Positions 41,690-64,000 of a DNA stretch of 64,000 nucleotides are shown here, piece after piece. Position numbers and translations under genes: made by a program. Origin of the DNA: Streptomyces venezuelae (GTDB taxonomy: Bacteria; Actinomycetota; Actinomycetes; Streptomycetales; Streptomycetaceae). The DNA lies in the NCBI RefSeq assembly GCF_008642295.1, contig NZ_CP029190.1, forward strand, positions 1,798,001 to 1,862,000, in the 5' to 3' direction. The notes below the pieces were generated by a model. The model ran no database searches and had not been told where the DNA came from. It saw nothing but the letters and a program-made list of their open reading frames with translations. The stretch's first letter is position 1, and each line of letters begins with the position of its first letter.

Positions 41690-41815
41690 CCTCGTGTAAC
41701 CCTGCGCCCGGCTACAAATGGGCCTGAACGCAGGGGAATCCGGTGCGAATCCGGACCTGTCCCGCAACCGGTGCAGCGCCCTTCACGGCGCGGAGTCCGA
41801 GGACCTGCCTCCCAG
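41690..41815 (+). ncRNA. Cobalamin riboswitch (orphan)
   Basis: The conserved B12-box core is plain: GGGGAATCCGGTGCGAATCC followed by GGACCTGTCCCGCAACCGGT (41732-41772), then GAGTCCGAGGACCTGCC (41793-41809) as the 3' closing element. The preceding CCTGCG pairs with CGCAGG to form an inner stem. Cobalamin binding normally shuts off a downstream gene, but no B12-related gene follows on this strand. The next 430 bp hold a hairpin and only a small open frame, after which genes run the other way. Confidence 0.88.
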
Positions 41816-50487: not shown

Positions 50488-50964
50488 GCGCCCACCTCAC
50501 GCTCTCAAGCGGCAGATGCCTCCTCCTCTACCGGACGCCGGTGGGCGCCGACGCCAGATCCGGCGAACTGCTCCTACTTCGACCCTCATTCGCTAGCGGA
50601 CCGCTGTTCGCACACGGTCCGCCGCGCTGGGCGGAGCGACCTGGACGGAGGCCCGCCCCGCAGGAAGGACAGCGGTCAGTGCCGGCCGGCCTTGCGGTCG
50701 TGACGGGCCGTTGCATCTCTCCCGTCCGTCCGGCGGGTCGTGGTGATGGCTGCTCGGTCTCGTTCCCACACGCCGAGCAGTTCCTCCTGGTGGCGAAGTC
50801 GCGGTGGCCCGAGGCCGTGTTCGAGGGCGCAGGCGGCCCCGCCGCTGCGGCAACGGTGCCTGTAGGCCAGACGCGACGGACGGGCGGGACGCGCCTGGGC
50901 CGTTCGCATCACACCCAGCCCCCTGTGGCCGGTCGCACAGATGTGGGTCTGGCGTGGTCGTGGC
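50488..50964. other. Gap without a recognisable gene
   Basis: Open frames exist on both strands, but none resembles a known family or has a ribosome site. The minus strand near 50690-50900 reads as a basic, protein-like tail (LRHQEELLGVWERDRAAI) that could be a gene fragment. Confidence 0.4.
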
Positions 50965-51130
50965 CGGTTCTGCGATGCTTCCGTCCGACAAGCGACGGCG
51001 GAACGAGGAAGCCGGTGAGATTCCGGCACGGTACCGCCACTGTGTAGGGGGAGCGACTCCACCCATGGCCACCGCCCCATCCGGGGGTGGGAAGGCCGGA
51101 GAAGCACTGATCCCGAGTCAGGAGACTCAC
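50965..51130 (+). ncRNA. Cobalamin riboswitch controlling the importer operon
   Basis: The B12-box core reads GAGGAAGCCGGTGAGATTCC then GGCACGGTACCGCCACTGTG (51005-51044), followed by a CCATCCGGGGGTGG hairpin and the closing element GAGTCAGGAGACTC (51114-51127). It lies about 250 bases upstream of the substrate-binding protein gene on the same strand. High cobalamin should repress the operon. Confidence 0.9.
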
Positions 51131-51377
51131 GCCGTCGCACCTCGAAGTACGGGGCGGATTTCCCCAGGAGAGGCGGTGGCACCCGTGTGCCTGCGTATGT
51201 GTGGCGGCAGCTTCGCGCTGCCCTCGGCCCGTCGGAGCCGACCTGCCCGGGCTGACACCCACGCCCGTTCCCCCAGGTTCTGACGACCTCTTCCCTCAGC
51301 GGGTTCCTTCCCGTACGCCGCATCACGCGCACCGGCATGCCGGTGCGCACTGCCCACGCACGCCACCAGGAGTCACC

Positions 51378-52613
51378 TTGTTCGTACGATCCGTCATGCC
51401 CGGCCGCCGTCAGGCCGCCGCTGCGGCCTTCATCGCCGCCGCCCTCACGCTCACCGCGTGCGGCGGCGACTCCAGCCCGCCCGCCGACTCCAAGGCCCAG
51501 GCCGCCGGGGAGGGTTGCATCAAGGACTTCGACCCGGCCAAGGACTACTTCCCGGTCAAGTCGACGGTAAGGCACGCCAAGAACTTCACGCTCCGGTACG
51601 AGAAGAGCTACCAGGTCCTCACCGTCAACGAGCCCTTCCCCAAGGGCAAGCCCGAATCGTACGTGCTGGTCAAGTGCGGTGCGCCGAAGCCGGAGCTGAC
51701 CGGTGAGCTGGCGTCCGCGCAAGCGGTCACCGTCCCCGTCAAGAGCCTGTACTCCGCCTCCACCACCCACCTGCCGCTGCTGACCGAGACCGGCACCCTG
51801 GACGTCCTGACGGGGGTGGCGAGCACCACGAACATCTCCTCCGCCCAGGTGATCGAGCGAGTGAAGGCAGGGAAGGTCACCGAGTACGCCAAGGACCGGA
51901 CCCTCAACGCCGAGACGGTCATCGGCGCCAAGCCCGACGTGCTGATGACCCAGGGCACCGACGACCCGCAGTATCCGAAGCTCCGTCAGGCCGGTATCGC
52001 GGTGGTCGCCAACGCCGAGTGGCTGGAGCCCAGTCCGCTCGGCCGCGCTGAGTGGGTCAAGGCGATGGCCGCGCTCACCGGAGCGGAAAAGCGCGCCGGC
52101 GAGGTGTTCGACACCATCGAGGGCGACTACCGCAAGGTCGCCGAGAAGGGCGCGCAGGCGGTCAAGGCGGGCAAGCCCGTCGACGTGCTGCCCGGCACGA
52201 TGTACCAGGGCACCTGGTACATGCCCGCCGGCGGCAGCTACGCCGCCCAGCTGGTCAAGGACGCGGGCGGCACCTACCCCTGGGCCGGCGAGGCGGGCAC
52301 CGGCAACCTCCAGCTGAACTTCGAGGCCGTGTACGCCAAGGGCGGCGAGGTCCCGGTCTGGATCGCCGACCAGAAGTGGAAGTCCACCGCCGACGCCGTC
52401 AAGGCCGACAGCCGGTACGGGCAGCTGAAGGCCCTCTCCGGAGGTGCGGTCTGGACGAACACCAAGGCGCTCGGCCCCGGCGGCGGCAACGACTACTTCG
52501 AGCGCGGTGTGCTGCGCCCGGACCTGGTCCTCGCCGACCTCTTCGCGCTGATGCACCCGGACCAGGCGAAGGACCACACCTTCACCTTCTACACCCAGGT
52601 GCCCAAGGCGTGA
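51378..52613 (+). CDS. ABC transporter substrate-binding lipoprotein (BtuF/siderophore type)
   Basis: This 411-residue protein has a lipoprotein signal (FIAAALTLTACGGD, lipobox LTAC) and the two-lobe fold of class III binding proteins (vitamin B12, haem and ferric siderophores): TLDVLTGVASTTNISS, then AKPDVLMTQGTDDPQYPKL and PVWIADQKWKSTADAVKAD. An N-terminal extension of about 60 residues (CIKDFDPAKDYFPVKST) precedes it. The TTG at 51378 has CAGGAG five bases upstream; ATG 51396 is possible. Control by a cobalamin riboswitch suggests cobalamin, a corrinoid or a cobalt chelate as ligand. Confidence 0.85.
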   Translation: MFVRSVMPGRRQAAAAAFIAAALTLTACGGDSSPPADSKAQAAGEGCIKDFDPAKDYFPVKSTVRHAKNFTLRYEKSYQVLTVNEPFPKGKPESYVLVKCGAPKPELTGELASAQAVTVPVKSLYSASTTHLPLLTETGTLDVLTGVASTTNISSAQVIERVKAGKVTEYAKDRTLNAETVIGAKPDVLMTQGTDDPQYPKLRQAGIAVVANAEWLEPSPLGRAEWVKAMAALTGAEKRAGEVFDTIEGDYRKVAEKGAQAVKAGKPVDVLPGTMYQGTWYMPAGGSYAAQLVKDAGGTYPWAGEAGTGNLQLNFEAVYAKGGEVPVWIADQKWKSTADAVKADSRYGQLKALSGGAVWTNTKALGPGGGNDYFERGVLRPDLVLADLFALMHPDQAKDHTFTFYTQVPKA

Positions 52614-53713
52614 CGACTCACACGGCAACCGCGCCGGCCGCCGTCCCGGACACCCCGCGGGCGGTACGGCCGGGACGGCGGCGCCTCGTCGTCGTCCTCG
52701 CCCTCGCGGGCGGTACCGCCGCACTGTTCGTCCTGACCATCGCGACCGGCTCTCACCGGGTGCCGGTCGCCGAGGTGGTGCGGATCCTGTTCGGCGGTAC
52801 AGCCGACGACCCGCGATGGACCGTGATCGTCGAGCAGGTCCGGCTGCCGCGCGCGCTGACCGCGACCGCCGTCGGGGCGGCCCTCGCGGTGGCGGGTGTG
52901 CAAATGCAGACCCTGTTCCGTAACGCGCTGGCCGACCCGTTCTCCCTCGGGGTGAGCTCGGGCGCCAGCATGGGCGTCGCCGCCGTGGTGGTCGGCACCG
53001 GCGGGGTCGCCGGCAGCTTCACCGGAAACCTGGCCGGCCTCGGGCGCGTGGGCGTCGTCCTGGCCGCCTCGCTCGGCGCCGCCGCTGTGCTGGCCCTCGT
53101 CCTGCTCCTCTCGCGATGGGTGCGGTCGGCCGTCACCCTGCTCGTCATCGGCGTCATGATCGGCTCGGCGGCCACCGCCGTGGTCGGCGTGATGCTCGTC
53201 TACGCCCGGCCCGAACGTGCCCAGCAGTTCGTCATGTGGGGCCTGGGCAGCTTCAGCGCCACGACCTGGCCCGACCTCCAGGTCATGCTGCCCGTCATCG
53301 GCGCGGGCCTGCTGACCGCGCTGCTGACCGCCAAGCGCCTCAACGCCCTGCTGCTCGGCGAGGACTACGCCCGCACCATGGGGCTGAACGTGCGGCGCAG
53401 CCGCGATCTGGCACTGCTCGGCACCTCGCTGCTGGCGGGCGCGGCAACCGCGTTCTGCGGCCCCGTCGCCTTCCTGGGCCTGGCCGTCCCGCATCTGACG
53501 CGGGTGGCGCTGGGGACCTCGGACCACCGGGCGCTCATTCCCGCGTCGATGCTCGCCGGGGCCTTCCTCGCGCTGGCCTGCGCGCTGCTGAGCCAACCGC
53601 CCGGCACCGACTCCGTGCTGCCTCTCAACGCCATCACCTCACTGTTCGGCGCCCCCGTCGTCATCGCGTTCCTGATCCGCAGCCGTCGCGGCGTACAAGG
53701 AGTGGCCTCGTGA
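52610..53713 (+). CDS. FecCD/BtuC-type ABC permease
   Basis: This 367-residue permease has about ten helices and the classical FecCD landmarks: VRLPRALTATAVGAALAVAG, MQTLFRNALADPFSLGVSSG and GPVAFLGLAVPHLTRVALG, where the ATPase couples. It imports B12 or siderophore-type complexes. It overlaps the binding-protein stop (GTGA) and the ATPase gene in the same way. Confidence 0.9.
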   Translation: MTTHTATAPAAVPDTPRAVRPGRRRLVVVLALAGGTAALFVLTIATGSHRVPVAEVVRILFGGTADDPRWTVIVEQVRLPRALTATAVGAALAVAGVQMQTLFRNALADPFSLGVSSGASMGVAAVVVGTGGVAGSFTGNLAGLGRVGVVLAASLGAAAVLALVLLLSRWVRSAVTLLVIGVMIGSAATAVVGVMLVYARPERAQQFVMWGLGSFSATTWPDLQVMLPVIGAGLLTALLTAKRLNALLLGEDYARTMGLNVRRSRDLALLGTSLLAGAATAFCGPVAFLGLAVPHLTRVALGTSDHRALIPASMLAGAFLALACALLSQPPGTDSVLPLNAITSLFGAPVVIAFLIRSRRGVQGVAS

Positions 53714-54783
53714 CCGACACCATGACCGAGACCGCCACGGAGAAGGCCGACGGACGACCGGACCACCCTGGTGGTCTCGCCACCCAGCGGCTCGCCGTCG
53801 GATACCGCACCCGGTCACCGCGCGGGCGCAGAGCAGGCCGGGCCGTACTGTCGGGGCTCGACCTGACCGCGCGAGCCGGCGAACTGACAGTTCTGCTCGG
53901 CCCCAACGGCGCGGGCAAGTCCACGCTGCTACGCACCCTGTGCGGGCTTCTCCCACCGCTCGGCGGCCGGATCCGCATCGGCGGCGCCGACCTGGCGCAG
54001 ACCTCGCCGACCGCGCTCGCCCGCCGGCTGGCGGTCGTCCTGACCGACCGGGTGGATCCTGGGCTGCTGTCCGTACGGGAACTGGCCGGGCTCGGCCGCC
54101 ACCCGCACACCGGGTTCACCGGCCGCCTCACGGACGCGGACCACGCGGCCGTCGAGTGGTCGCTGCAGGCGGTGAGCGCGGGACACCTGGCGGACCGACC
54201 GGTCGCCGAACTCTCCGACGGCGAACGCCAACGCGTCCTGACCGCGCGCGCCCTCGCCCAGGAGCCCGAGGTCATCCTCCTCGACGAGCCGACCGCCTTC
54301 CTCGACGTCCCCTCACGGGTGGCGCTCACCGTACTCCTGCGCGACCTCGCCCGGGACAAGGGACTGACCGTCGTCGTCAGCACCCACGACCTGGAACTGG
54401 CCCTGCGGGTGGCCGACGCGGTCTGGATCGTCGACCGCGACTCCTACGTCCACGCCGGGGCACCCGAGGACCTGATCCGCAGCGGGGCCGTCGCCGCCGC
54501 CTTCGACGCCGACCACCTCGCCTTCGACCCGCTCTCCGGCACCTTCGGACTGCGCCGCACCCCCCGCGCCGACGTGGCGGTGGACGCGCCGGCCGAGCTG
54601 CTCCCGCTCCTCGAGCGCGCCCTCGCCCGGGAAGGACTCGCCGTCGCAAACCCGGGCAGCCCGGCCGCAGGTCCCCGGGTGAGCTGGGACGGAGAGGACC
54701 GGCTCACCCTCACCGGACCCGACGGGCAGATCGTCCACGTCCGCGGCTTCCACGAGCTGACGCGAACGGTACGGACATGGTGA
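53710..54783 (+). CDS. ABC transporter ATPase (BtuD/FhuC type)
   Basis: This ATPase has Walker A GPNGAGKST, a Q-loop near VVLTDRVDPG, signature LSDGERQRV, Walker B VILLDEPTAFLD and switch His in STHDLELAL. At 357 residues it is about 100 longer than usual. The extra C-terminal part (PAELLPLLERALAREGLAV, then TGPDGQIVHVRGFHEL) looks like a small separate regulatory domain. It powers the FecCD-type permease encoded upstream. Confidence 0.9.
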   Translation: MTDTMTETATEKADGRPDHPGGLATQRLAVGYRTRSPRGRRAGRAVLSGLDLTARAGELTVLLGPNGAGKSTLLRTLCGLLPPLGGRIRIGGADLAQTSPTALARRLAVVLTDRVDPGLLSVRELAGLGRHPHTGFTGRLTDADHAAVEWSLQAVSAGHLADRPVAELSDGERQRVLTARALAQEPEVILLDEPTAFLDVPSRVALTVLLRDLARDKGLTVVVSTHDLELALRVADAVWIVDRDSYVHAGAPEDLIRSGAVAAAFDADHLAFDPLSGTFGLRRTPRADVAVDAPAELLPLLERALAREGLAVANPGSPAAGPRVSWDGEDRLTLTGPDGQIVHVRGFHELTRTVRTW

Positions 54784-55496
54784 ACGCGCTGATCACCCCC
54801 GACACCCTGGCGCGGATCTCCGCGATCGGCCCCTACTTCGCGGTGTCCACCGGCCCCCGCCCCGAGGCCGACGGCTTCCGGCCACTGACCGACCTGTACG
54901 CCGACCCGGGCGCGCTGGAGGAATGCGTACGAACCGTCTCCGGGCGGCTGGGCACCGACCAGCCCAGAGTGGCCGCGTCCACCCTGCACCTGGGCACCGC
55001 CTCCCGGCTCTGGTCGATCGCCCTGGCCTGCACAGCGCTCACCGGCCGCGTCCCCGATCTGGGGCCCGACCGGCTGTGGTGGCGCCTGCCCGCCTCAGGC
55101 CCCCTCGACCTGTGGCTGCCCGACCTGCGGGAGGTCGACCAGGAACTGCACCCGGCTCTGCACCACACCGTCGCCGTCCAGAACCTGGCGCCATGGGCCG
55201 ACGCCGTACGGCGCGTTTCCGGCGTCTCCCCGCACACCCTGCGCGGCAATGCCGCCTCGGCGCTGATCGGAGCCCACCGCGTCCTGATCGCCAGAGCGCC
55301 GCGCCCCCTCGTCCCCGTCATACCTCTCGTCCGCGCGCTGCTGGACCAGCCTCCGCTGACCGGAGCCGGCACGCACCGCGCCACTCCCGCCGGACCACTC
55401 GCCTTCCGACGACGCAGCTGCTGCCTGTACTACCGCGTGCCGGGCGCGGGCACCTGCGGCGACTGCGTCCTCAACCCCAAGGAGAAGACCGCATGA
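54777..55496 (+). CDS. FhuF-like ferric-chelate reductase, (2Fe-2S) protein
   Basis: This 239-residue protein has the FhuF/siderophore-interacting layout and the C-terminal [2Fe-2S] motif RRSCCLYYRVPGAGTCGDC, that is CC-x10-C-x2-C. FhuF proteins reduce the metal in an imported siderophore to release it. Here it is in a cobalamin-regulated operon, so it might release cobalt from a chelate or act on a corrinoid. ATG 54777 overlaps the ATPase stop. Confidence 0.82.
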   Translation: MVNALITPDTLARISAIGPYFAVSTGPRPEADGFRPLTDLYADPGALEECVRTVSGRLGTDQPRVAASTLHLGTASRLWSIALACTALTGRVPDLGPDRLWWRLPASGPLDLWLPDLREVDQELHPALHHTVAVQNLAPWADAVRRVSGVSPHTLRGNAASALIGAHRVLIARAPRPLVPVIPLVRALLDQPPLTGAGTHRATPAGPLAFRRRSCCLYYRVPGAGTCGDCVLNPKEKTA

Positions 55497-56053
55497 CCAC
55501 CACCGAGCCGACCGTCGTCGAAACCCCCGGCGGCGGCACCCAGCACGTCTGGCCCCTCCCCGTCGACGAGGCCACCCTCCTCGACCTCGTCACCACCGTC
55601 TTCACCGACCACTGGCAGCACATCCACTTCGGACCCATCATCGAAGGCGCCGCCTGGGAGGTCGGCGCCCCCTGCGCCCCCACCGCCATCACCATGAACG
55701 ACGGCTACGCCACCGTCGACTTCGGCGCCTGGCACTTCCACCTGTGCATCGGCGAACACACCGCCTCCGGCCCCGAACTCGGCCGCATCCGCCGCTGCTC
55801 CCGCGCCGAGCTCTACCGCAGCATCGGCTCCGACGGCGCCCCCGTCAGCTGGGGCGCCCGCCTGTTCAACGGCCGCGACGAACAGATGATGACCGTACTC
55901 CTGCCCAACCCCTTCCTCACCGACCGCCAGGAGATCCTCGACGCCCCCGACTTCGCCCGCCTCACCGCCTGGGACACGCTCCGCGACCGCTTCCTCGGCC
56001 TGTCGCCCGACCCTCTCGACCGCACGGGCAAGGGCTTCCGGCACAACGGCTGA
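55493..56053 (+). CDS. Conserved hypothetical protein of the importer operon
   Basis: I cannot name this 186-residue soluble protein. Its core holds a striking metal-ligand-like cluster (GAPCAPTAITMNDGYATVDF, then WHFHLCIGEH, and IRRCSRAELY), with several His and Cys that could bind a metal or a metal chelate. It overlaps the fhuF-like stop (ATGA) and ends the operon, converging on the peptide/nickel-type transporter genes 30 bp away. Confidence 0.7.
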   Translation: MTTTEPTVVETPGGGTQHVWPLPVDEATLLDLVTTVFTDHWQHIHFGPIIEGAAWEVGAPCAPTAITMNDGYATVDFGAWHFHLCIGEHTASGPELGRIRRCSRAELYRSIGSDGAPVSWGARLFNGRDEQMMTVLLPNPFLTDRQEILDAPDFARLTAWDTLRDRFLGLSPDPLDRTGKGFRHNG

Positions 56054-56082
56054 CGTAGGGCCCGGCTTCCCAGCCTCCCCTC

Positions 56083-57510
56083 TCAACGCTCTGGAGCAGA
56101 TCTCTGCCGGCAGGTGACCAGCCGGCCGGCGTCGAGGACTGCGGTTCGGTCGGCCAGGGCTTCGCCGGCCGCCCCGTCATGGGTGATGAACACCAGGCTC
56201 AGGCCGTCCCGTTCCCGGAGTGCGGCCAACCGGGTGAGGATCGCGTCCCGGGTGGCCGCGTCGAGCCCGGAGGTGATCTCGTCGCAGACCAGGACGTCGG
56301 GCTCGGCCAGCAGGGCCCGGGCCAGAGCGGCCCGTTGGAGTTCGCCGCCGGAAAGGGCGCCGGGGCGGCGCAAGGTCAGCTCCTCGGCCAGGCCCAGGTC
56401 CTCCAGGGTTCGTACGGCGGTACGGCGGGCGGTGTCCCGGTCGGCGCCGCGCAGCCGGACCGCCGTGCGGGCGACCTGGTCCAGGACCGGCCGGTGCTCG
56501 TCGAAGGCCGCCTTGGGATCCTGGAACACGTACTGGACGGCAGCCAGTTCGGTGCGGGCGCGAGCGCGGAGGCTGCGTGGCAGCGGGGTTCCGTCGAGCA
56601 GGACCGCGCCGTCGTACGCGGAGTGCAGTCCGGCCAGGCAGCGACCCAGGGTCGTCTTGCCGCTGCCGGACCGGCCGGTCACGGCGAGGCACTCTCCCGG
56701 CGCGACCGACAGCGTGACGCCGTGCAGCACCGGAACGGTACCGTGCGCCGTTGGGTGCCGGGCGGTCAGCCCCTGTACCGCGATCCGGGTGGCGACGGGC
56801 CGGGTGGCTGCTCGTGGCTTGGGGAGCACGGGCCGCTTGGAGGCGGGCAGTACGGTGTCCGCGGGGCCGCGGTCCACTACCCGGCCATCCCGCAGCACGA
56901 CCGCCTCGTCGGCCAACTGCCGTACGACGTCCCAGTCATGGCTCAGCAGGACCAGGGCAATGCCTTGCTCGGCCACGTCGGCGAGCGCCTCGACGACGCC
57001 CCTCTTGGTGGCCGGGTCCTGGCCCGTGGTGGGTTCGTCGGCGACGATCAACTTCGCGCCCAGGAGCAGGGCCTGTGCGATGACGACCCGCTGCTGCTGT
57101 CCGCCGGAGAGCTGGTGGGGGTAGCGGCGCAGCACCATCTCGGGGTCGGGCAGCTGGGCCAGGCGCAGGGCGTGCTCGACGCGGTCGCGGATCTCGCCGC
57201 GGGTTCCGCCGCGCTGGGCGGCGATGTCCCGCAGGAGTGCTCCGGCTCGGCGGGCGGGGTTGAGGACGGCTGCGGGGTGCTGGGGTACGTAGCCGACGGA
57301 GCCGGGTCCCGGGATGCTGATCCGGCCGTCGATCCGTGCCCCGGGCGGGAACTCGCCGAGGAGGGCGCGTCCGGTGGTGGTCTTCCCGCTGCCCGAGGGC
57401 CCGACGAGGGCCGTTGTCCGCCCGGCACGGGCCGTCAGGCTCACCCCGTCGACGAGCACGCTGCCGGCCACCTCCACCCGCAGGCCGTCCACTTCCGCTA
57501 CCGGCTTCAT
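56083..57510 (-). CDS. Fused ABC ATPase (NikD-NikE/OppD-OppF type)
   Basis: This 475-residue protein is two ATPases in one chain. The first has Walker A GPSGSGKTT (about residue 40), LSGGQQQRV and VADEPTTGQD. The second, after residue 255, has GRSGSGKTT, LSGGELQRA and VCDEITSGLD. Together they energise the nickel/dipeptide-type permease encoded upstream in the operon. Such fusions are common in opine-metallophore, nickel and peptide importers. ATG 57510 overlaps the permease stop. Confidence 0.9.
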   Translation of the reverse strand: MKPVAEVDGLRVEVAGSVLVDGVSLTARAGRTTALVGPSGSGKTTTGRALLGEFPPGARIDGRISIPGPGSVGYVPQHPAAVLNPARRAGALLRDIAAQRGGTRGEIRDRVEHALRLAQLPDPEMVLRRYPHQLSGGQQQRVVIAQALLLGAKLIVADEPTTGQDPATKRGVVEALADVAEQGIALVLLSHDWDVVRQLADEAVVLRDGRVVDRGPADTVLPASKRPVLPKPRAATRPVATRIAVQGLTARHPTAHGTVPVLHGVTLSVAPGECLAVTGRSGSGKTTLGRCLAGLHSAYDGAVLLDGTPLPRSLRARARTELAAVQYVFQDPKAAFDEHRPVLDQVARTAVRLRGADRDTARRTAVRTLEDLGLAEELTLRRPGALSGGELQRAALARALLAEPDVLVCDEITSGLDAATRDAILTRLAALRERDGLSLVFITHDGAAGEALADRTAVLDAGRLVTCRQRSAPER

Positions 57511-58322
57511 ACCCGGTCTCCTTTCCAGCCGGTCTTGGCCGGTGTGTGCAGGGCGGCGTCGAAGAGCAGGTTGGTGCCCATCGACAGGGCTGCGATGAGC
57601 AGGGCGGGTACCACCACGGCCCATGGCTGGAGGAACAGGCCGGTGCGGTTTCGGTCGACCATGACCGCCCAGTCGGCGGCGTCCGGTGGGACGCCGATGC
57701 CGAGGAATGCGGCCGTGGCCACCAGGTACAGGGCTCCGGTCAGCCGGATCCCCGCGTCGGCGGCGAGGGTCCGGCGCATACAGCGGGCAACGTACCCGAT
57801 CGCCGTACGCCACCAGGTCTCGCCCTGCATCCGCAGGGCCTCGACGGCGGGCCGGGCGGAGATCTCGGCCGCCGCCGCGTGCACCACGCGAGCTGCGTCG
57901 GGTACGGCGGCCAGGCCGACCAGGGCGGCCAGGCCGGCCGGCCCCGGGGTGAGGGTCGAGGCCACCAGCAGCACCAGCAGGAGCGACGGGACGGCGATCA
58001 GGACATCGAGGGGCCGCATGAGGGCCTCCTCCAGCCAGGTGCGGCGGGTGAGGGCCGCGGTGAGCCCGATCGGGACGGCGACCAGGTAGGCGAGTCCGGT
58101 GGCGGCGAGCGCCACGAGGACGACGGAGCGGCCTCCGAGCAGGACCTGCCGCCAGACGTCCCGGCCGGAGAAGTCGGTGCCCAGCCAGTGCCCGCCGCCC
58201 GATGCGAACGACACCGACCGGGGTCCGGCCGGTCCGGTGAGCAGCGGTCCGAGGGCAGCCAGCAGCAGGGGCACGGCGATGAGACCGACGGCCAGGGCGT
58301 ACCTGGATGCATGGCGCCTCAC
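57507..58322 (-). CDS. ABC permease, NikC/OppC type
   Basis: This 271-residue permease has an N-terminal helix and then the OppC-like periplasmic segment HWLGTDFSGRDVWRQVLLGGR, and the cytoplasmic coupling region EALRMQGETWWRTAIGYV. It pairs with the NikB-type permease. Start GTG 58322 overlaps that gene (GTGA). Confidence 0.88.
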   Translation of the reverse strand: MRRHASRYALAVGLIAVPLLLAALGPLLTGPAGPRSVSFASGGGHWLGTDFSGRDVWRQVLLGGRSVVLVALAATGLAYLVAVPIGLTAALTRRTWLEEALMRPLDVLIAVPSLLLVLLVASTLTPGPAGLAALVGLAAVPDAARVVHAAAAEISARPAVEALRMQGETWWRTAIGYVARCMRRTLAADAGIRLTGALYLVATAAFLGIGVPPDAADWAVMVDRNRTGLFLQPWAVVVPALLIAALSMGTNLLFDAALHTPAKTGWKGDRV

Positions 58323-59266
58323 GCGACCGCCTCCGCACGGGGGGCGAAGCGGCGGGCCACGAGGTCCGCGCCCAGGTTGGCCAGGACGGTCACCACGCCG
58401 AAGACGACGGCCATGCCCTGGACGACGGGCACGTCGCGGGCGGCGACGGCGTCGATGAGCACGGTTCCCAGGCCGGGGATGACGAAGAGGGCTTCGACGA
58501 CGATCACTCCGCTCAGCAGCCAGTCGCAGGTCCGGGCCAGTTGCTGGGCGGCCGGAGCAAGGGCGTTGGGCAGGGCGTGCGTCCAGCGGACGCGGGCGCC
58601 GCTGACGCCGTAGCGCTGGGCCTGGGCGACGTATGGCGAGGCCATCGCGTCGATCATCCCGGCGCGTACCAGGCGGCTGATGGTGCAGACGGGCCGCGAG
58701 ACGAGTACGAGGACGGGCAGGACCAGCACGGCCGGCTCGGTGACCGGGTCCGCGCCGACGGCCGTGGGCGGCAGCCAGCCCAGCCACAGCCCGAACAGGG
58801 TGGCCAGCAGCACGCCGAGGGCGAACTCGGGCACGGAGTGCACGGCCAGGGTCAGCGCGCTGAGGGTCCGGTCCAGCGGGCCGCCCTCGCGGCGGGCGCA
58901 CAGCACGCCGAGTCCGACCGACAGCGGTAGGAGTACCAGGAGAGTGGCGCAGGCGAGCGTCACCGTGGGACCGAATCCACCGGTCAGGTAGTCGGCGACG
59001 GGGCGCCCGCTGACCAGGGAGGTGCCGAGGTCACCCCGGACGAGGCCGGCGGCCCAGTCCAGGAAGCGTTCGGCGGCGGGTCGGTCCAGGTCCAGTGCGG
59101 CGCGGATCCGGGCGATGCGCTCGGGGTCCGGCTGGTCGCCGGCCAGGGCGACCGCCGCGTCGCCGGGCAGGGCCTCGGTGAGGACAAAGATGAACAGGAC
59201 GACCGCCGCCGTCTGCCCCAGGCCGAGGAGCAGACGGCGGCCGATCCAGTTCAGCTGCCGGGTCAC
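58319..59266 (-). CDS. ABC permease, NikB/OppB type
   Basis: This 315-residue permease has FIFVLTEALPGDAAVALAG at the N-terminus, DLGTSLVSGRPVADYL, and MASPYVAQAQRYGVSGARVR as the coupling loop, all typical of OppB/NikB. It forms the heterodimeric channel with the NikC-type protein. GTG 59266 overlaps the binding-protein stop. Confidence 0.88.
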   Translation of the reverse strand: MTRQLNWIGRRLLLGLGQTAAVVLFIFVLTEALPGDAAVALAGDQPDPERIARIRAALDLDRPAAERFLDWAAGLVRGDLGTSLVSGRPVADYLTGGFGPTVTLACATLLVLLPLSVGLGVLCARREGGPLDRTLSALTLAVHSVPEFALGVLLATLFGLWLGWLPPTAVGADPVTEPAVLVLPVLVLVSRPVCTISRLVRAGMIDAMASPYVAQAQRYGVSGARVRWTHALPNALAPAAQQLARTCDWLLSGVIVVEALFVIPGLGTVLIDAVAARDVPVVQGMAVVFGVVTVLANLGADLVARRFAPRAEAVA

Positions 59267-60843
59267 GCGAGCCAGAGCCTGTCGAAGCGGGCCCAGTCGA
59301 GGGTGTTGGCGGGGGCCTGCTTCGAGACTCCGTGCACGGCGGGCGCGGTGGCGACGATCCAGTCGGCGAAGCCCCAGATCAGGAAGCCGCCTTCGTCGTA
59401 CAGGCGGCGCTGCATCCGCTCGTAGAGGGCGGCGCGTTCCTTCTCGTCGCGGGTGGACTGGGCCTGCTGGTACAGGTCGTCGAAGTCCTTCTGCTGCCAC
59501 TTGGTGGCGTTGGTGGTGGAGCCGGTGAGCAGGCGCTGCGAGATGTGGGACTCGATGGGCATGGACCCGGACCGGTAGGAGGCGAAGGTCCCGTTGTTCA
59601 GGATGTCCTTCCAGTACGTGTCCTTGTTGCCGACCTTGACCTCGACGGTGACCCCGGCCTTGGCGGCCTGCTCCTTGAAGATCCCGGCGGCCTCGACGAA
59701 GCCGGTGGCAGCGGGGGCGGTGTCGAGGGTGACCTTGAGGTTCTCGGCGCCGGCCTCCTTGAGGAGGGCGCGGGCCCGGTCGAGGTCCTGGGTGCGCTGC
59801 GGCAGGCCGGAGGCGTAGTACTGGTAGCCCTTGCCGAAGAGGTCGTTTCCGACCTCGCCGGCGCCGGAGAGGGCGCCGTCGACGAGTTCCTTGCGGTCGG
59901 CGATGAGGAAGAACGCCTGCCGGACCCGCTTGTCGTTGAACGGCGGCCGGTCGGTCTTCATGACGAAGCCCTGCATGGAGCTGCCGGGCAGCCGGACGAC
60001 CTCGATCTTGCCCTTGCCCTCGTGGGTGCGGGCGGTGGCGGGGGTGAGCTCGTGGGCGTACTGGACCTGGCCGCCGAGCAGCGCGCTCGTACGGGCCGAT
60101 TCCTCGGTGGCGACGACGAATTCGACCTGGTCGAGGTGGGGCGCGCCCTCCCAGTAGGCGTCGTTGCGCTTGACGATCAGGGACTTGCCGGGGGTGAAGG
60201 AGCCGAACGTGAAGGGGCCGGAGCCGACGGGCCTGTCGAAGGACGAGGTGTCCTTGGGGACGATGTAGGCACCGAACGCGGCGAGCACGTTGGGGAATTC
60301 GGCGTACGGGCGCTTGAGCTTGAACTCGACGGTGTTCGCGTCGAGGGCGCGGCTGGCGGCGAGGTCGATCGGCTCCAGGGATGCCTTGGCCCGGAAGGTG
60401 CCCTTGGGGTCGGCGATCCGCCGGTAGCTGTAGAGGACGTCCTCGGCGGTGACCGGGCGCCCGTCGTGGAAGGCCGCCTTGCGCAGGGTGATCTTCCAGG
60501 TGTCGAGGGTCTCGTTGGGCTCCCAGCGCTCGGCGAGCCGCGGGACCGGCGCGAGGTCGGTGCCGAAGTCGGCGAGCTTGTCGTAGAGAGCCTTGGCGCG
60601 GGCGGCGTCGACGAACAGGTTCGCGGCGTGCGGGTCGAGGGTCTCGTTCGCGCCGCCACCCGCGAAGGCGGCGCGCAGGGTGCCGCCACGCTTGGGGGTG
60701 CCGGCCTCGGCGGCGTTCTTGCTGTCTGCGGTCTTACCGGTGTCGGCGGAGCAGCCGGCGGTCAGGGCAAGGGCGGCGGCGGTGGCCGTGGCGGTGGCGA
60801 GGAGGAAGCCTCGGCGGGCGAGGCCGGAGCGGCGCTGGTTCAC
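59263..60843 (-). CDS. ABC substrate-binding lipoprotein, peptide/nickel/opine type
   Basis: This 526-residue class C binding protein has a Tat-like and lipobox signal (RRGFLLATATATAAALALTAGC). TPKRGGTLRAAFAGGGANE follows, then LAERWEPNETLDTWKITLR, FHDGRPVTAEDVLYSYRRI and the C-terminal lobe (DFDDLYQQAQSTRDEKERAA). The family binds peptides, nickel complexes or nicotianamine-like opines (NikA, CntA). Its operon includes an exporter and small-molecule enzymes, so a self-made chelator is a plausible ligand. Confidence 0.88.
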   Translation of the reverse strand: MNQRRSGLARRGFLLATATATAAALALTAGCSADTGKTADSKNAAEAGTPKRGGTLRAAFAGGGANETLDPHAANLFVDAARAKALYDKLADFGTDLAPVPRLAERWEPNETLDTWKITLRKAAFHDGRPVTAEDVLYSYRRIADPKGTFRAKASLEPIDLAASRALDANTVEFKLKRPYAEFPNVLAAFGAYIVPKDTSSFDRPVGSGPFTFGSFTPGKSLIVKRNDAYWEGAPHLDQVEFVVATEESARTSALLGGQVQYAHELTPATARTHEGKGKIEVVRLPGSSMQGFVMKTDRPPFNDKRVRQAFFLIADRKELVDGALSGAGEVGNDLFGKGYQYYASGLPQRTQDLDRARALLKEAGAENLKVTLDTAPAATGFVEAAGIFKEQAAKAGVTVEVKVGNKDTYWKDILNNGTFASYRSGSMPIESHISQRLLTGSTTNATKWQQKDFDDLYQQAQSTRDEKERAALYERMQRRLYDEGGFLIWGFADWIVATAPAVHGVSKQAPANTLDWARFDRLWLA

Positions 60844-61667
60844 GGGGTGGTGTCTCCGTTGCTGTTGTGCTGGGGGGTGTTCTGGGGACTGAGCCGGGCG
60901 ACGAGGTGGAGGCGGTCGGAACTTGTGGTTCCGTGCGGGGAGTCGCCTTCGCTCCACACAGGTTCGGTGCGGGGACCGGGGCCGTCGTGCAGGGCGAGGA
61001 CCTCGAAGCCGGCGGTGGTGAGGAAGTACCGCAGCTCCTGGGGGAAGAGCAGCCGCCAGGCGGAGTGCTGCTCTTCCGGGTCGGAGCCGTCGTCGGCGGT
61101 CCAGGTGCGGCGCCGGCTCAGGAGTTGGGCGCCGTGGTCGATCCACAGGGTGGTGTGGGAGGTGTACGTCGTGCCCCGCCAGTCGAAGGAGGCGGTGCGC
61201 GTCCCGTCGAGGAGTTCGGTGTTGCCGAGGAAGAAGGCGCCGTTGCGCATCTCCGCGACGAGCAGTCCGCCCGGGCCCAGGTGGCGGCGGATGGCGGCGA
61301 GGCAGGAGGTGAGGTCTTCGTTGGTGTGGCAGTAGAGCAGGGCGCTGTCCAGGCAGAGGACGGCGTCGAAGGTGCGGCCGAGGTCGAAGTCCCGCATGTC
61401 GGCGCGGTGGTAGTCGGGTCCGGGGTGTCGGCGGCGGGCGTGGGCGAGCATGGCCTTGGCGGTGTCGATCCCGGTGACCCGGCGTCCGGCGTGGTGGTGC
61501 AGCCAGGCGGCGTCCCGGCCGGTGCCGCAGCCGAGGTCCAGAATCCGGGCTCCCGCGCCGTGGCGGCGCAGGGTGTCCTCGGTCCAGCGTGCGGCGAGCC
61601 GGTCGGGGTCGGGGAAGCGCTCTTCGTAGAGCTCGGGGTGGTCGGTGAGGAGGTTGCCGGTGCTCAT
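60840..61667 (-). CDS. Class I SAM-dependent methyltransferase
   Basis: This 275-residue Rossmann methyltransferase has motif I ARILDLGCGTGRDAAWL near residue 45, acidic GIDTAKAML, then DAVLCLDSALLYC and GGLLVAEMRNGAFF. It overlaps the MFS gene start-to-stop (ATGA) and the binding-protein start (GTGA). In a metal or peptide export-import operon it may N- or O-methylate the transported compound. It is not recognisably nicotianamine synthase. Confidence 0.85.
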   Translation of the reverse strand: MSTGNLLTDHPELYEERFPDPDRLAARWTEDTLRRHGAGARILDLGCGTGRDAAWLHHHAGRRVTGIDTAKAMLAHARRRHPGPDYHRADMRDFDLGRTFDAVLCLDSALLYCHTNEDLTSCLAAIRRHLGPGGLLVAEMRNGAFFLGNTELLDGTRTASFDWRGTTYTSHTTLWIDHGAQLLSRRRTWTADDGSDPEEQHSAWRLLFPQELRYFLTTAGFEVLALHDGPGPRTEPVWSEGDSPHGTTSSDRLHLVARLSPQNTPQHNSNGDTTP

Positions 61668-62998
61668 CTGGTCTCGCTCAGGGGACGTGGGCCAGGGGTG
61701 GCGGGCGTTGTCTTCGCATGCTGTTCCGGGTCCTCCGGGACCGGCGAGTCCGGAGCAGCGGATGCCGCGGCGGTGGCAGGCGGGCGGGGCAGGGCCCGGC
61801 GTCGGTGCAGCAGGGTGACGGCCGCCGCCGAGGCGAGGCCGAGTGCCGTGCAGCAGGCGTAGGGAAGCCATGTCGGCCCGCCGTGCGTCGCGGTGTCCAT
61901 GGCCCACCCGACCCCCGCGCCGGTGCCCGCGGCAGCCGCTCCGGACACTCCGTAGAACAGGCCGTAGAAGGTGCCGGTGAGCTCCGCGCGGCCGAAGGCG
62001 GGGATGAGTTCCATGACGAAGGGCTGGGCGGTCATCAACCCGACGTACAGGAGCAGCGCTCCGGCCAGGACCGGCAGCAGCAATACCGGGTGCGTCCCCG
62101 CTGCTCCCGCCATCAGCATCGGTGGTACGAAGCCGAGTCCGCTGACGGTCAGCCCGGCGGCGATCCACCGGCCCCGGCCACCGGCCCGGGCGGCCAGCCT
62201 GCGGGTGATTCGCAGCTGGAGCAGGAAGTTGGCGAAGGTCCCGACGACGAAGATCAGCCCGACGGCGCCCGCCCAGCCGGTGGCCTGCCGCGCGGCGTGC
62301 GGGAGCAGCAGGTAGAGCTGGCTCTCCATGCCGTACATGCCGACCATGGCGAGGGAGAAGGCCACGAAGCGCCGGTTGCCGGCCACCTCCCGCCAGTCGC
62401 CGAGCACGGAGCCTGTCGGCCGGGGCACGGCACGGGCGGGCAGCACCACAGCCTGGGCGAGGGTGAGCAATGCGAACACCCCGGCCGCGGTGAGTGCCGC
62501 GACCCGGAAGCCGCCGAACAGCAGCAGGCCCCCCAGCAGCGGCCCGATCAGCGCACCCGCCGTGGCGAACACGTTGAACAGGGCGAACGCCTCGGCCTTG
62601 CGGTCGCCGGACTCCTGGGCGACGTACGTCCGTACGGCCGGGTTGAACAGGGCTCCCGCCAGCCCGCTCAGCACGGACGCGGCGATCAGTACGGGCAGCG
62701 CGTCGCCCAGGGCGAACAGCGCGAAGCCCAGGGTGCGCAGGCCACAGCCCGCGATGATCACGCCGCGGGCCCCGAGGCGGTCGGCGGCGGAGCCCCCGAT
62801 CAGGAAGAGCCCCTGCTGGCTGAGGTTGCGCAGGCCCAGGACCAGGCCGACCACCGCCGCCGACATACCGAGGTCGTCGGTCAGGTGCGTGGCCAGGTAC
62901 GGGATGAGGAGGTAGAAGCCGATGTTGACGCCGAGCTGGTTGACGAGCAGGAGCCGTACGGCCGGCGGGAAGCCGCGCACCGCGGCGATGGTTCTCAT
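61664..62998 (-). CDS. MFS exporter
   Basis: This 444-residue MFS protein has about twelve helices, the GGSAADRLGARGVIIAGCG loop motif and NPAVRTYVAQESGDRKAEAFA. It resembles drug/metabolite exporters such as CntE-like or YfcJ-like carriers. Placed between an epimerase and a methyltransferase, it probably exports the product of the operon. Overlaps on both sides are 4 bases. Confidence 0.85.
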   Translation of the reverse strand: MRTIAAVRGFPPAVRLLLVNQLGVNIGFYLLIPYLATHLTDDLGMSAAVVGLVLGLRNLSQQGLFLIGGSAADRLGARGVIIAGCGLRTLGFALFALGDALPVLIAASVLSGLAGALFNPAVRTYVAQESGDRKAEAFALFNVFATAGALIGPLLGGLLLFGGFRVAALTAAGVFALLTLAQAVVLPARAVPRPTGSVLGDWREVAGNRRFVAFSLAMVGMYGMESQLYLLLPHAARQATGWAGAVGLIFVVGTFANFLLQLRITRRLAARAGGRGRWIAAGLTVSGLGFVPPMLMAGAAGTHPVLLLPVLAGALLLYVGLMTAQPFVMELIPAFGRAELTGTFYGLFYGVSGAAAAGTGAGVGWAMDTATHGGPTWLPYACCTALGLASAAAVTLLHRRRALPRPPATAAASAAPDSPVPEDPEQHAKTTPATPGPRPLSETR

Positions 62999-64000
62999 CG
63001 GGCGGCTCCTACGGGTATGGCGGCGCGGGGCAGCACTCCCAGGCCGCCGCGCGATGCGGGGCGTACGGTGCCGTCGGAGCCGCCGATGCCGGACCAGGGA
63101 TCGTCGGCGAGGAGCAGGTGCCCGTCGAGGTCGATCCAGCGGGCCCGGTCGACCAGGTGGACGGCGGGCGCGATGCCGAGGGAACTGGCGGTGAGGCAGC
63201 CGAGCATGAGGTCGGTGCCGGTGCCGTCCAGCGCGGCATGGATGCGCAGCGCGGCCCGTACGCCCCCGCACTTGGCGAGCTTCACGTTGACGCCGTGGAC
63301 CCGCCCGGCGAGGGCCGCGGCGTCCTCGTAGGAGACCGCGTCCTCGTCGGCGATCACGGGGATCGGGGAGGTGGTGGCGACCCGGGCCAGGGCATCGGGC
63401 TGCCCGGCGGCGATCGGCTGTTCCACGGCGGTGACGCCGAGGGCTGCGAAGCGGGGCAGCAGTGCGTGGGCCTGGTCCTCGGTCCATGCGCCGTTGGGGT
63501 CGAGCAGCAGGTCCGCGGCGGGCGCTCCCACACGGACGGCCTCGACCCGGGCCAGGTCCTCGACCGGGTCGGGAGATCCGGCCTTGACCTTCAGCACGCT
63601 GAATCCGGCCGCGGCGAGCCGACTGGCCTGGGCGGCAGCGGATACGGGCGTGACGATGCCGATGGTGCGTGCCGTGGCGGCGGACGGCGGCAGAGGGCTG
63701 CCGAGGAGTCGGTGCACGGGTTCGCCGGCTCGCTTGCCGGTGAGGTCCAGTACGGCTGATTCAACGGCGGCGAGGACTCCTGCGGGCAGGTCTGCGCCCA
63801 CAGGGCCCGCGGGCGCGAGTTCCGCCCAGGCGGTCTCGGGGTCCGGCAGGCGCTCCACCGCCGGCCGGAGGGCGCTCAGGTGGCGGAGGATGGTTTCGGT
63901 GGGCAGTCCGAGGTAGACGCTGCTGACTGCCTCCCCCCAGCCGCGCAGCCCGCCGTGTTCCAGGCTGACCCAGACCGCGTCGCGGCGGGCCATCACCGAG
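62995..64000 (-). CDS. Enolase-superfamily racemase/epimerase (partial, N-terminus off the right edge)
   Basis: About 335 residues of a mandelate-racemase/muconate-lactonising-type enzyme are present; the frame is open to the window edge. The catalytic set is visible: VLKVKAG (KxK), LLLDPNGAW (Asp), TAVEQPIA (Glu), VIADEDAV (Asp) and GVNVKLAKCGG (second Lys). This pattern fits L-Ala-D/L-Glu (dipeptide) epimerases and amino-acid racemases. In staphylopine-type metallophore pathways the first step is racemisation of an amino acid, which this enzyme might perform here. Confidence 0.85.
   Translation of the reverse strand, partial: SVMARRDAVWVSLEHGGLRGWGEAVSSVYLGLPTETILRHLSALRPAVERLPDPETAWAELAPAGPVGADLPAGVLAAVESAVLDLTGKRAGEPVHRLLGSPLPPSAATARTIGIVTPVSAAAQASRLAAAGFSVLKVKAGSPDPVEDLARVEAVRVGAPAADLLLDPNGAWTEDQAHALLPRFAALGVTAVEQPIAAGQPDALARVATTSPIPVIADEDAVSYEDAAALAGRVHGVNVKLAKCGGVRAALRIHAALDGTGTDLMLGCLTASSLGIAPAVHLVDRARWIDLDGHLLLADDPWSGIGGSDGTVRPASRGGLGVLPRAAIPVGAAR

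Follow-up and report, generated by a model that had tools for sequence, protein, structure and literature searches.

Two operons that converge at the right end of a stretch of Streptomyces DNA raise the question of whether they form one system that supplies cobalt when vitamin B12 is scarce, as an earlier note on this DNA proposed, or two systems that only share an address. The stretch, called the window below, comprises 64,000 nucleotides (positions 1798001 to 1862000 of a genome of 7.53 Mb that consists of one contig); its left operon, on the plus strand, follows a cobalamin riboswitch, and its right operon, on the minus strand, encodes a nickel-type importer together with biosynthetic and export genes. 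Gene functions throughout have been read from sequence only, so that product and metal assignments are predictions: gene families, gene order, conservation, the riboswitch, a conserved promoter box and predicted folds were read directly, and from there we infer substrates, reaction order, the metal, Zur binding and the direction of regulation. With a probability of about 0.7, the two operons are independent systems meeting tail to tail, on the right a Zur-repressed metallophore system, probably for a zincophore, and on the left a corrinoid importer repressed by a B12 riboswitch. The observation made in the earlier note is confirmed and its interpretation partly supported; the window's two operons are variants of already known kinds of system, and the idea of a B12-regulated cobaltophore may reappear in stronger form outside the window, in riboswitch-controlled clusters of other Streptomyces.

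The left operon comprises the following elements.

50958-51148, plus strand: cobalamin riboswitch aptamer RF00174 (84.9 bits, E 1.7e-19, gathering score 31.5; positions 1-189, the whole aptamer)
51396-52613, plus strand: lipoprotein-type solute-binding protein (SBP), Peripla_BP_2 (PF01497, 70.7 bits)
52610-53713, plus strand: FecCD/BtuC-type permease (PF01032, 246.6 bits; top NCBIfam match BtuC, 171 bits, under cut-off)
53710-54783, plus strand: ABC ATPase of BtuD/FecE type with a C-terminal extension (PF00005, 108 bits; top NCBIfam match corrinoid ABC ATPase, 202 bits, under cut-off)
54777-55496, plus strand: FhuF-like 2Fe-2S reductase (FhuF_C, 38.8 bits)
55493-56053, plus strand: DUF7676 (PF24724), by Pfam match and fold prediction a putative cytosolic tetrapyrrole-binding protein of ChuX/HutX fold

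The riboswitch is the sole Rfam match above gathering score in the window, and these matches bear out the description of a cobalamin riboswitch preceding a siderophore-type importer with an FhuF-like reductase. Each pair of neighbouring genes overlaps by a few bases, and the order SBP-FecCD-ATPase-FhuF-DUF7676 after a cobalamin riboswitch is a conserved unit: the riboswitch (one partial) also stands ahead of the operon's four other intact Streptomyces copies and accompanies it in 7 of 8 loci of other genera. The SBP is 54-90% identical to 10 aligned relatives, and a sequence search of the PDB returned no match for it. The reductase belongs to the FhuF family by its C-terminal CC-x10-C-x2-C cluster, invariant in 12 aligned sequences, and by its predicted fold, which matches E. 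coli FhuF (7qp5, TM 0.74); at 31.7 against 63.85 bits for the TIGR03951 equivalog it is FhuF-like and not the siderophore-iron reductase itself. DUF7676 had been called His/Cys-rich, which is overstated for 8 His and 3 Cys in 186 residues, although H81, H83 and C85 are indeed invariant in 50 aligned sequences (49 of the 659 homologues found). Its predicted fold is that of the haem-binding ChuX/HutX/HemS proteins, at 8-16% identity to the seven top-ranked structure chains.

Because of this predicted fold, import and reduction of an intact corrinoid would fit the left operon better than release of cobalt from a metallophore, and the earlier view that FhuF suits metal release better than intact B12 is weakened. 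The importer, repressed through the B12 riboswitch, would bring in a corrinoid and pass it to DUF7676 as a ChuX-like cytosolic chaperone, and FhuF would reduce Co(III), with loss of the upper ligand; if this is true, Gram-positive bacteria would have in DUF7676 a cytosolic protein dedicated to receiving corrinoids. On the other hand, it is possible, if rather unlikely, that the left operon supplies cobalt, importing a Co(III) chelate made by other organisms or by another cluster, from which FhuF would free the metal for cobN. Such a role could draw on the FhuF fold and on the Mycobacterium-type loci, where cobN lies divergent from the operon in 3 of 4 and a cobF-like gene adjoins in 3 of 4; furthermore, 2 of the 6 genomes with DUF7676, one of them with a DUF7676 fragment only, carry a riboswitch-controlled metallophore cluster of the kind described below (expected 0.28, uncorrected p 0.028), in a statistic that ignores kinship of the genomes. 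The haem-chaperone fold predicted for DUF7676 speaks against cobalt supply, as do the best family names of permease and ATPase, BtuC and corrinoid ATPase, though both lie under their cut-offs.

The right operon runs towards the left one on the minus strand, and the Nik-type importer, MFS protein, methyltransferase and enolase-type enzyme previously noticed there are all present by Pfam. It is truncated by the window edge and extends 3.4 kb further, a part that was read in locus L006 (L006 position plus 50000 gives the window-equivalent coordinate).

56083-57510, minus strand: fused NikD/NikE-type ATPase (two ABC_tran stretches; NikD 258, NikE 253 and CntF 247 bits, all under cut-off)
57507-58322, minus strand: NikC/DppC-type permease (PF00528)
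58319-59275, minus strand: NikB/DppB-type permease (PF00528 and PF19300)
59263-60843, minus strand: NikA-like solute-binding protein, SBP_bac_5 (PF00496, 283 bits; top NCBIfam match nickel SBP, 154 bits, under cut-off; CntA 70 bits)
60840-61667, minus strand: S-adenosylmethionine-dependent methyltransferase (PF13649, 73 bits)
61664-62998, minus strand: MFS exporter (PF07690, 105 bits)
62995-64000, continuing to window-equivalent 64059, minus strand: MR_MLE enolase-superfamily, dipeptide-epimerase-like enzyme (PF13378, 124 bits)
64056-65186 window-equivalent (L006 14056-15186), minus strand: SbnA-family pyridoxal-phosphate enzyme (243.5 bits)
65183-66070 window-equivalent (L006 15183-16070), minus strand: DUF364 (PF04016, "heavy-metal chelation"; 26.7 bits against a gathering score of 23)
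66067-67386 window-equivalent (L006 16067-17386), minus strand: dipeptide-type ATP-grasp ligase, closest to the L-amino acid ligase 3vot and BacD
67390-67404 window-equivalent (L006 17390-17404), minus strand: Zur-type box TGAAAACGATTTCCG, upstream of the ATP-grasp gene, from a consensus scan

The sequence beyond 64000, to which the earlier note had pointed, thus holds biosynthetic genes of the SbnA, DUF364 and ATP-grasp families and a Zur-type site, which together strengthen the proposal of a gene set for making, exporting and recovering a metallophore; as to a further riboswitch, none reaches gathering score ahead of the right operon, nor does any other Rfam RNA family elsewhere in the 38 kb of L006/L007. 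The SbnA-family enzyme has SbnA itself (5d84-5d87) as its closest solved structures and, at 243.5 bits against 349.95 for the TIGR03945 equivalog (scanned without the first 33 residues), is family-like and not SbnA itself. The DUF364 profile finds the DUF364 structure 3npg (E 3.7e-5), and the closest solved structures of the epimerase-like enzyme are an MR_MLE set that includes dipeptide epimerases. Pfam scans of the ten operon proteins named no nicotianamine-synthase-like or opine-dehydrogenase family (no direct CntL/CntM profile search was made), and no OCD-family match, and hence no sbnB partner of the staphyloferrin-type diaminopropionate pathway, was found among them. Beyond the operon's promoter lie a divergent GNAT gene and then, by eye, an HMA-type P-type ATPase.

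SbnA joins carbon derived from O-phosphoserine to the nitrogen of an amino acid. In the right operon, the SbnA-family enzyme would build an aminopolycarboxylate core by coupling an amino acid with a unit derived from serine, and because the operon has no SbnB, this adduct would remain uncleaved. The ATP-grasp ligase would add an amino acid through an amide bond, the epimerase would invert one centre, DUF364 might perform a condensation-type step and the methyltransferase would cap the product, which the MFS protein would export and the NikABC(DE) importer would recover as its metal complex. A product that is amide-linked, epimerised and then methylated is likely, since the ligase is closest to dipeptide ligases and the racemase to structures including dipeptide epimerases.

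Comparison across 295 Streptomyces genomes placed DUF364 in 122, with at least 67% identity in 69, the window genome included. The ten-gene order is recognisable in 19 of 21 other loci of the genus, in one of them (L044) by patchy matches alone, and in 68 of 80 named loci, which are the best 80 of 290 relatives and include S. scabiei 87.22. In all 14 loci read for a second class of DUF364 (type B, about 40-45% identity), the neighbouring gene encodes an SbnA-like enzyme (28-32% identity), mostly alongside FecCD or Nik importers and in one case close to a FUR-family gene. Since DUF364 pairs with SbnA-type enzymes in both classes, this places DUF364 in chelator biosynthesis, in agreement with its structure paper, which in the part consulted suggests an enzyme with a condensing or hydrolysing role for metal chelators such as siderophores (PMC2954201). 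The right operon thereby gives this family of solved structure a biosynthetic context. In one type-B locus (genome G273, L075:6192-9077) a riboswitch importer adjoins the DUF364 cluster, with a small Cys-containing protein without a Pfam match ahead of it.

Which metal the product of the right operon would bind is indicated by its promoter. A genome-wide scan with a Zur consensus at up to 3 mismatches gave 16 matches in 15 places, one of them the right operon, against 4 for the reversed pattern used as control. The neighbourhoods of 11 loci, covering 13 of the 16 matches, were read by eye: five lie near metal genes, namely a ZnuA-like SBP (two sites), a CobW-like GTPase (0.6 kb off), ribosomal-protein paralogues, a decarboxylase/P-type ATPase locus and the right operon, and the other six look like chance. 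A review counts znuABC, COG0523, alternative ribosomal proteins and a pair of actinomycete metallophores among the targets of Zur (PMC6103462). The box is conserved in the promoters of relatives, although absent in some: a TGAAAAYGATT core lies upstream in 20 of 22 window-type loci, 15 of which have at most 3 mismatches to the consensus of the genome-wide scan. Of the 75 upstream regions scannable in the named set of 80 loci, 59 carry, at up to 2 mismatches, the motif published for S. coelicolor, tGaNNatSatNNtCa (PMC5472717); among random windows drawn from the same loci, some of which may overlap true sites, 131 of 3750 carry it. A shorter core is present in 66 of the 75 upstream regions. With a Zur-type box ahead of the operon, and no riboswitch there that reaches gathering score, zinc is probably to be favoured over cobalt, and regulation by Zur is predicted. 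Iron control was considered and set aside, as a DmdR-like consensus found no box at up to 5 mismatches in L006 and 16 related loci. The decarboxylase/P-type ATPase locus of the window genome, at about 726-735 kb (L027:9973-20000), is a second Zur-box locus, with a DAP/ornithine-type decarboxylase and an OCD (SbnB-like) gene; judged by eye, it also has an importer of FecCD type and a P-type ATPase of HMA type similar to that beside the right operon.

That the chelator would serve for nickel, for copper or for several metals instead of zinc seems doubtful. A NikA-type importer is the best family name in the operon, and staphylopine, according to the consulted part of one paper, contributes to broad-spectrum metal uptake (PMC5719457); against this stand the conserved Zur-type box and the best Nur-like match in the promoter, which has 4 mismatches to the consensus and overlaps that box.

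Do the two operons nevertheless work together? A single B12-regulated cobaltophore system, in which the right operon makes the chelator and the left one recovers cobalt with FhuF, is not supported and we hold it to be highly improbable. It would account for the adjacency of the operons in the window genome and for the presence of FhuF together with an importer of siderophore type under riboswitch control, and cobalamin riboswitches do precede homologous biosynthetic clusters in other genomes; the right operon, however, has a Zur-type box, no riboswitch at gathering score and a Nik-type importer of its own. Moreover, DUF7676 occurs anywhere in just 2 of the 69 genomes with the window-type operon, the window genome and G209 (there on different contigs), which is co-occurrence at chance level (2 of 6 DUF7676 genomes, expected 1.4, p 0.43). 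None of 19 other loci read for 2.0-5.5 kb beyond NikDE has the riboswitch operon there, and no left-operon gene at more than 60% identity was found in the 80 named loci, a weak test of adjacency given flanks past NikDE of median only 0.8 kb (at least 0.5 kb in 64 of 71). Two candidate links were rejected, namely a second riboswitch before the right operon, as none reaches gathering score in L006/L007, and the riboswitch of L065, which precedes a metE-like gene; in G266 the DUF7676 operon and a riboswitch-type cluster lie on one contig, but are separated by about 30 kb of sequence with long reading frames of unrelated kind, and their linkage carries little weight. Ordinary dipeptide or cell-wall recycling, with a Dpp importer and an Ala-Glu epimerase, is a very improbable explanation of the right operon, for the Dpp-type importer and dipeptide-epimerase homology on which it draws are accompanied by SbnA, DUF364, ATP-grasp, methyltransferase and exporter genes and a Zur-type box.

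A biosynthetic operon under a B12 riboswitch, which the window's right operon is not, does exist in other Streptomyces.

L178:12552-14905 and L067:1-7369 (G174, Streptomyces sp. Tu 2975), and L189-L201 (13 further genomes): riboswitch-controlled metallophore-type clusters

Around a DUF7676 fragment, Tu 2975 carries a GHMP kinase, an SbnA-like enzyme, an ATP-grasp ligase, an MFS protein and a methyltransferase, then a cobalamin riboswitch (96.4 bits), SBP, FecCD and ATPase, with another riboswitch (78.5 bits) ahead of the kinase; the SbnA-like enzymes of this type and of the window operon are 30% identical. The ATP-grasp protein of this type has matches at E 1e-60 or better in 45 of the 295 genomes, the window genome not among them, and with at least 72% identity in 14; among the 120 proteins listed, the names given in the database are 'ATP-grasp', 'argininosuccinate lyase', 'biotin carboxylase' or hypothetical. 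Riboswitches were surveyed in 38 of the 45 genomes (the 14 close ones and 24 of the rest), counting matches of about 8e-10 or stronger. All 14 close clusters have a cobalamin riboswitch 2.0-2.4 kb upstream of the ATP-grasp start in the same orientation, and none of the 24 more distant ones has one within 10 kb, some of their contigs being short, and the riboswitch matches of these 24 genomes that did not enter the comparison are on contigs without the ATP-grasp gene in question; a direct Rfam rescan found the riboswitch in 4 of 4 close clusters and 0 of 7 distant ones. Kinase, SbnA-like enzyme and ATP-grasp ligase occur in all 14, all five biosynthesis and export genes in 12 (L196 is cut by a contig end, L201 lacks an MFS match), and a second riboswitch with an SBP-FecCD-ATPase importer of siderophore type in 8. 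No Zur box at up to 1 mismatch lies inside the close clusters; in L198 there is one past the methyltransferase, at a distance of about 4.6 kb. The window-type DUF364 is also present in four of the 14 genomes (G031, G154, G245, G289), and in G031 and G154 the entire window-type operon with its Zur-type box was seen.

We regard these 14 clusters as the real cobaltophore candidates, cobalt binding being predicted from their control regions. At roughly even odds, Streptomyces use one modular kit for metal-specific chelators, consisting of an SbnA-type enzyme, an ATP-grasp ligase, a methyltransferase and an MFS exporter, with GHMP kinase, DUF364 and epimerase variable, in which the regulatory element ahead of the genes signals the metal: a Zur box for zinc, as in the window, and a cobalamin riboswitch for cobalt, as in Streptomyces sp. 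Tu 2975, S. ficellus, S. luteolus, S. buecherae and others. If this is true, the riboswitch group would be dedicated cobaltophores, secreted chelators of cobalt that are produced only at low vitamin B12, many with their own riboswitch-controlled importer. At about 6.65 Mb (L009), the window genome carries a further SBP under riboswitch control, with 56% identity to the one in the candidate cobaltophore cluster, and related SbnA/ATP-grasp/methyltransferase clusters with a low-identity ATP-grasp occur in L202-L208.

Several observations weigh against the reading of a Zur-repressed metallophore beside a corrinoid importer. On the zinc side, the box of the window's right operon departs from the consensus of the scan at 3 positions, the core is lacking in 2 of 22 loci (L038 has none, L044 just a different 4-mismatch site) and 16 of 75 upstream regions carry at least 3 mismatches to the published motif; among type-B DUF364 loci a perfect Zur box is found in just 4 of 14, with one mismatch in 2 more, so that zinc control may not extend to the whole group, and L202-L208 lack a riboswitch and show no clear Zur box near their clusters, though L204 has two sites with 1 mismatch. 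One OCD-family (SbnB-like) gene lies elsewhere in the window genome (L027:16569-17549), and diaminopropionate chemistry in trans through this distant gene is possible. SbnA, NikA, BtuC and CntA models all score under NCBIfam cut-offs. On the corrinoid side, the match of DUF7676 to ChuX is moderate (Foldseek E 5.5e-4, TM about 0.5, root-mean-square deviation 4.2), the structure search gave just 2 matches at E 0.001 or better, and a common fold does not by itself demonstrate corrinoid binding. One of the eight other-genus loci (L175) has no riboswitch and one of the four Mycobacterium-type loci (L173) no CobN match, and the proximity of cobN fits cobalt supply also.

Both operons resemble characterized systems. 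The cnt gene set of staphylopine and pseudopaline comprises a racemase-type enzyme, an MFS exporter and a Nik/Opp-type importer round a small, zinc-linked, amino-acid-derived chelator; the right operon is alike in these, but its core step is of SbnA type, with DUF364 and an ATP-grasp ligase. It shares the SbnA family with the sbnA/sbnB branch of staphyloferrin B, without sbnB, and it is also akin to S,S-EDDS of Amycolatopsis japonicum, a Zur-controlled small chelator of an actinomycete as far as the consulted part of the review describes it (PMC6103462); SbnA-like chemistry may be a further common feature of the two. The left operon is like the BtuFCD corrinoid importers under B12 riboswitches in its riboswitch and Btu-type permease and ATPase, to which it adds FhuF and DUF7676; the latter shares a predicted fold with the ChuX/HutX haem chaperones, but is tied to B12 control and not to haem. 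In the literature searched, by titles and abstract openings, no description of a metallophore cluster controlled by a B12 riboswitch was found, and the term cobaltophore was absent from the papers listed. To our knowledge, bacterial cobalt collection for vitamin B12 beyond ion transporters has been little explored, and the riboswitch-controlled clusters supply named strains for direct tests of the cobaltophore idea.

Two minor observations concern riboswitches near the left operon and its relatives. A sub-threshold cobalamin-riboswitch-like match at 41734-41798 of the window (contig 1839734-1839798; 29.2 bits against a cut-off of 31.5) is probably due to chance. In the Mycobacterium-type loci (L168, L170, L171 and L173) the DUF7676 operon adjoins PPE-like genes, and three of these four have more cobalamin riboswitches beyond the operon, on the opposite strand.

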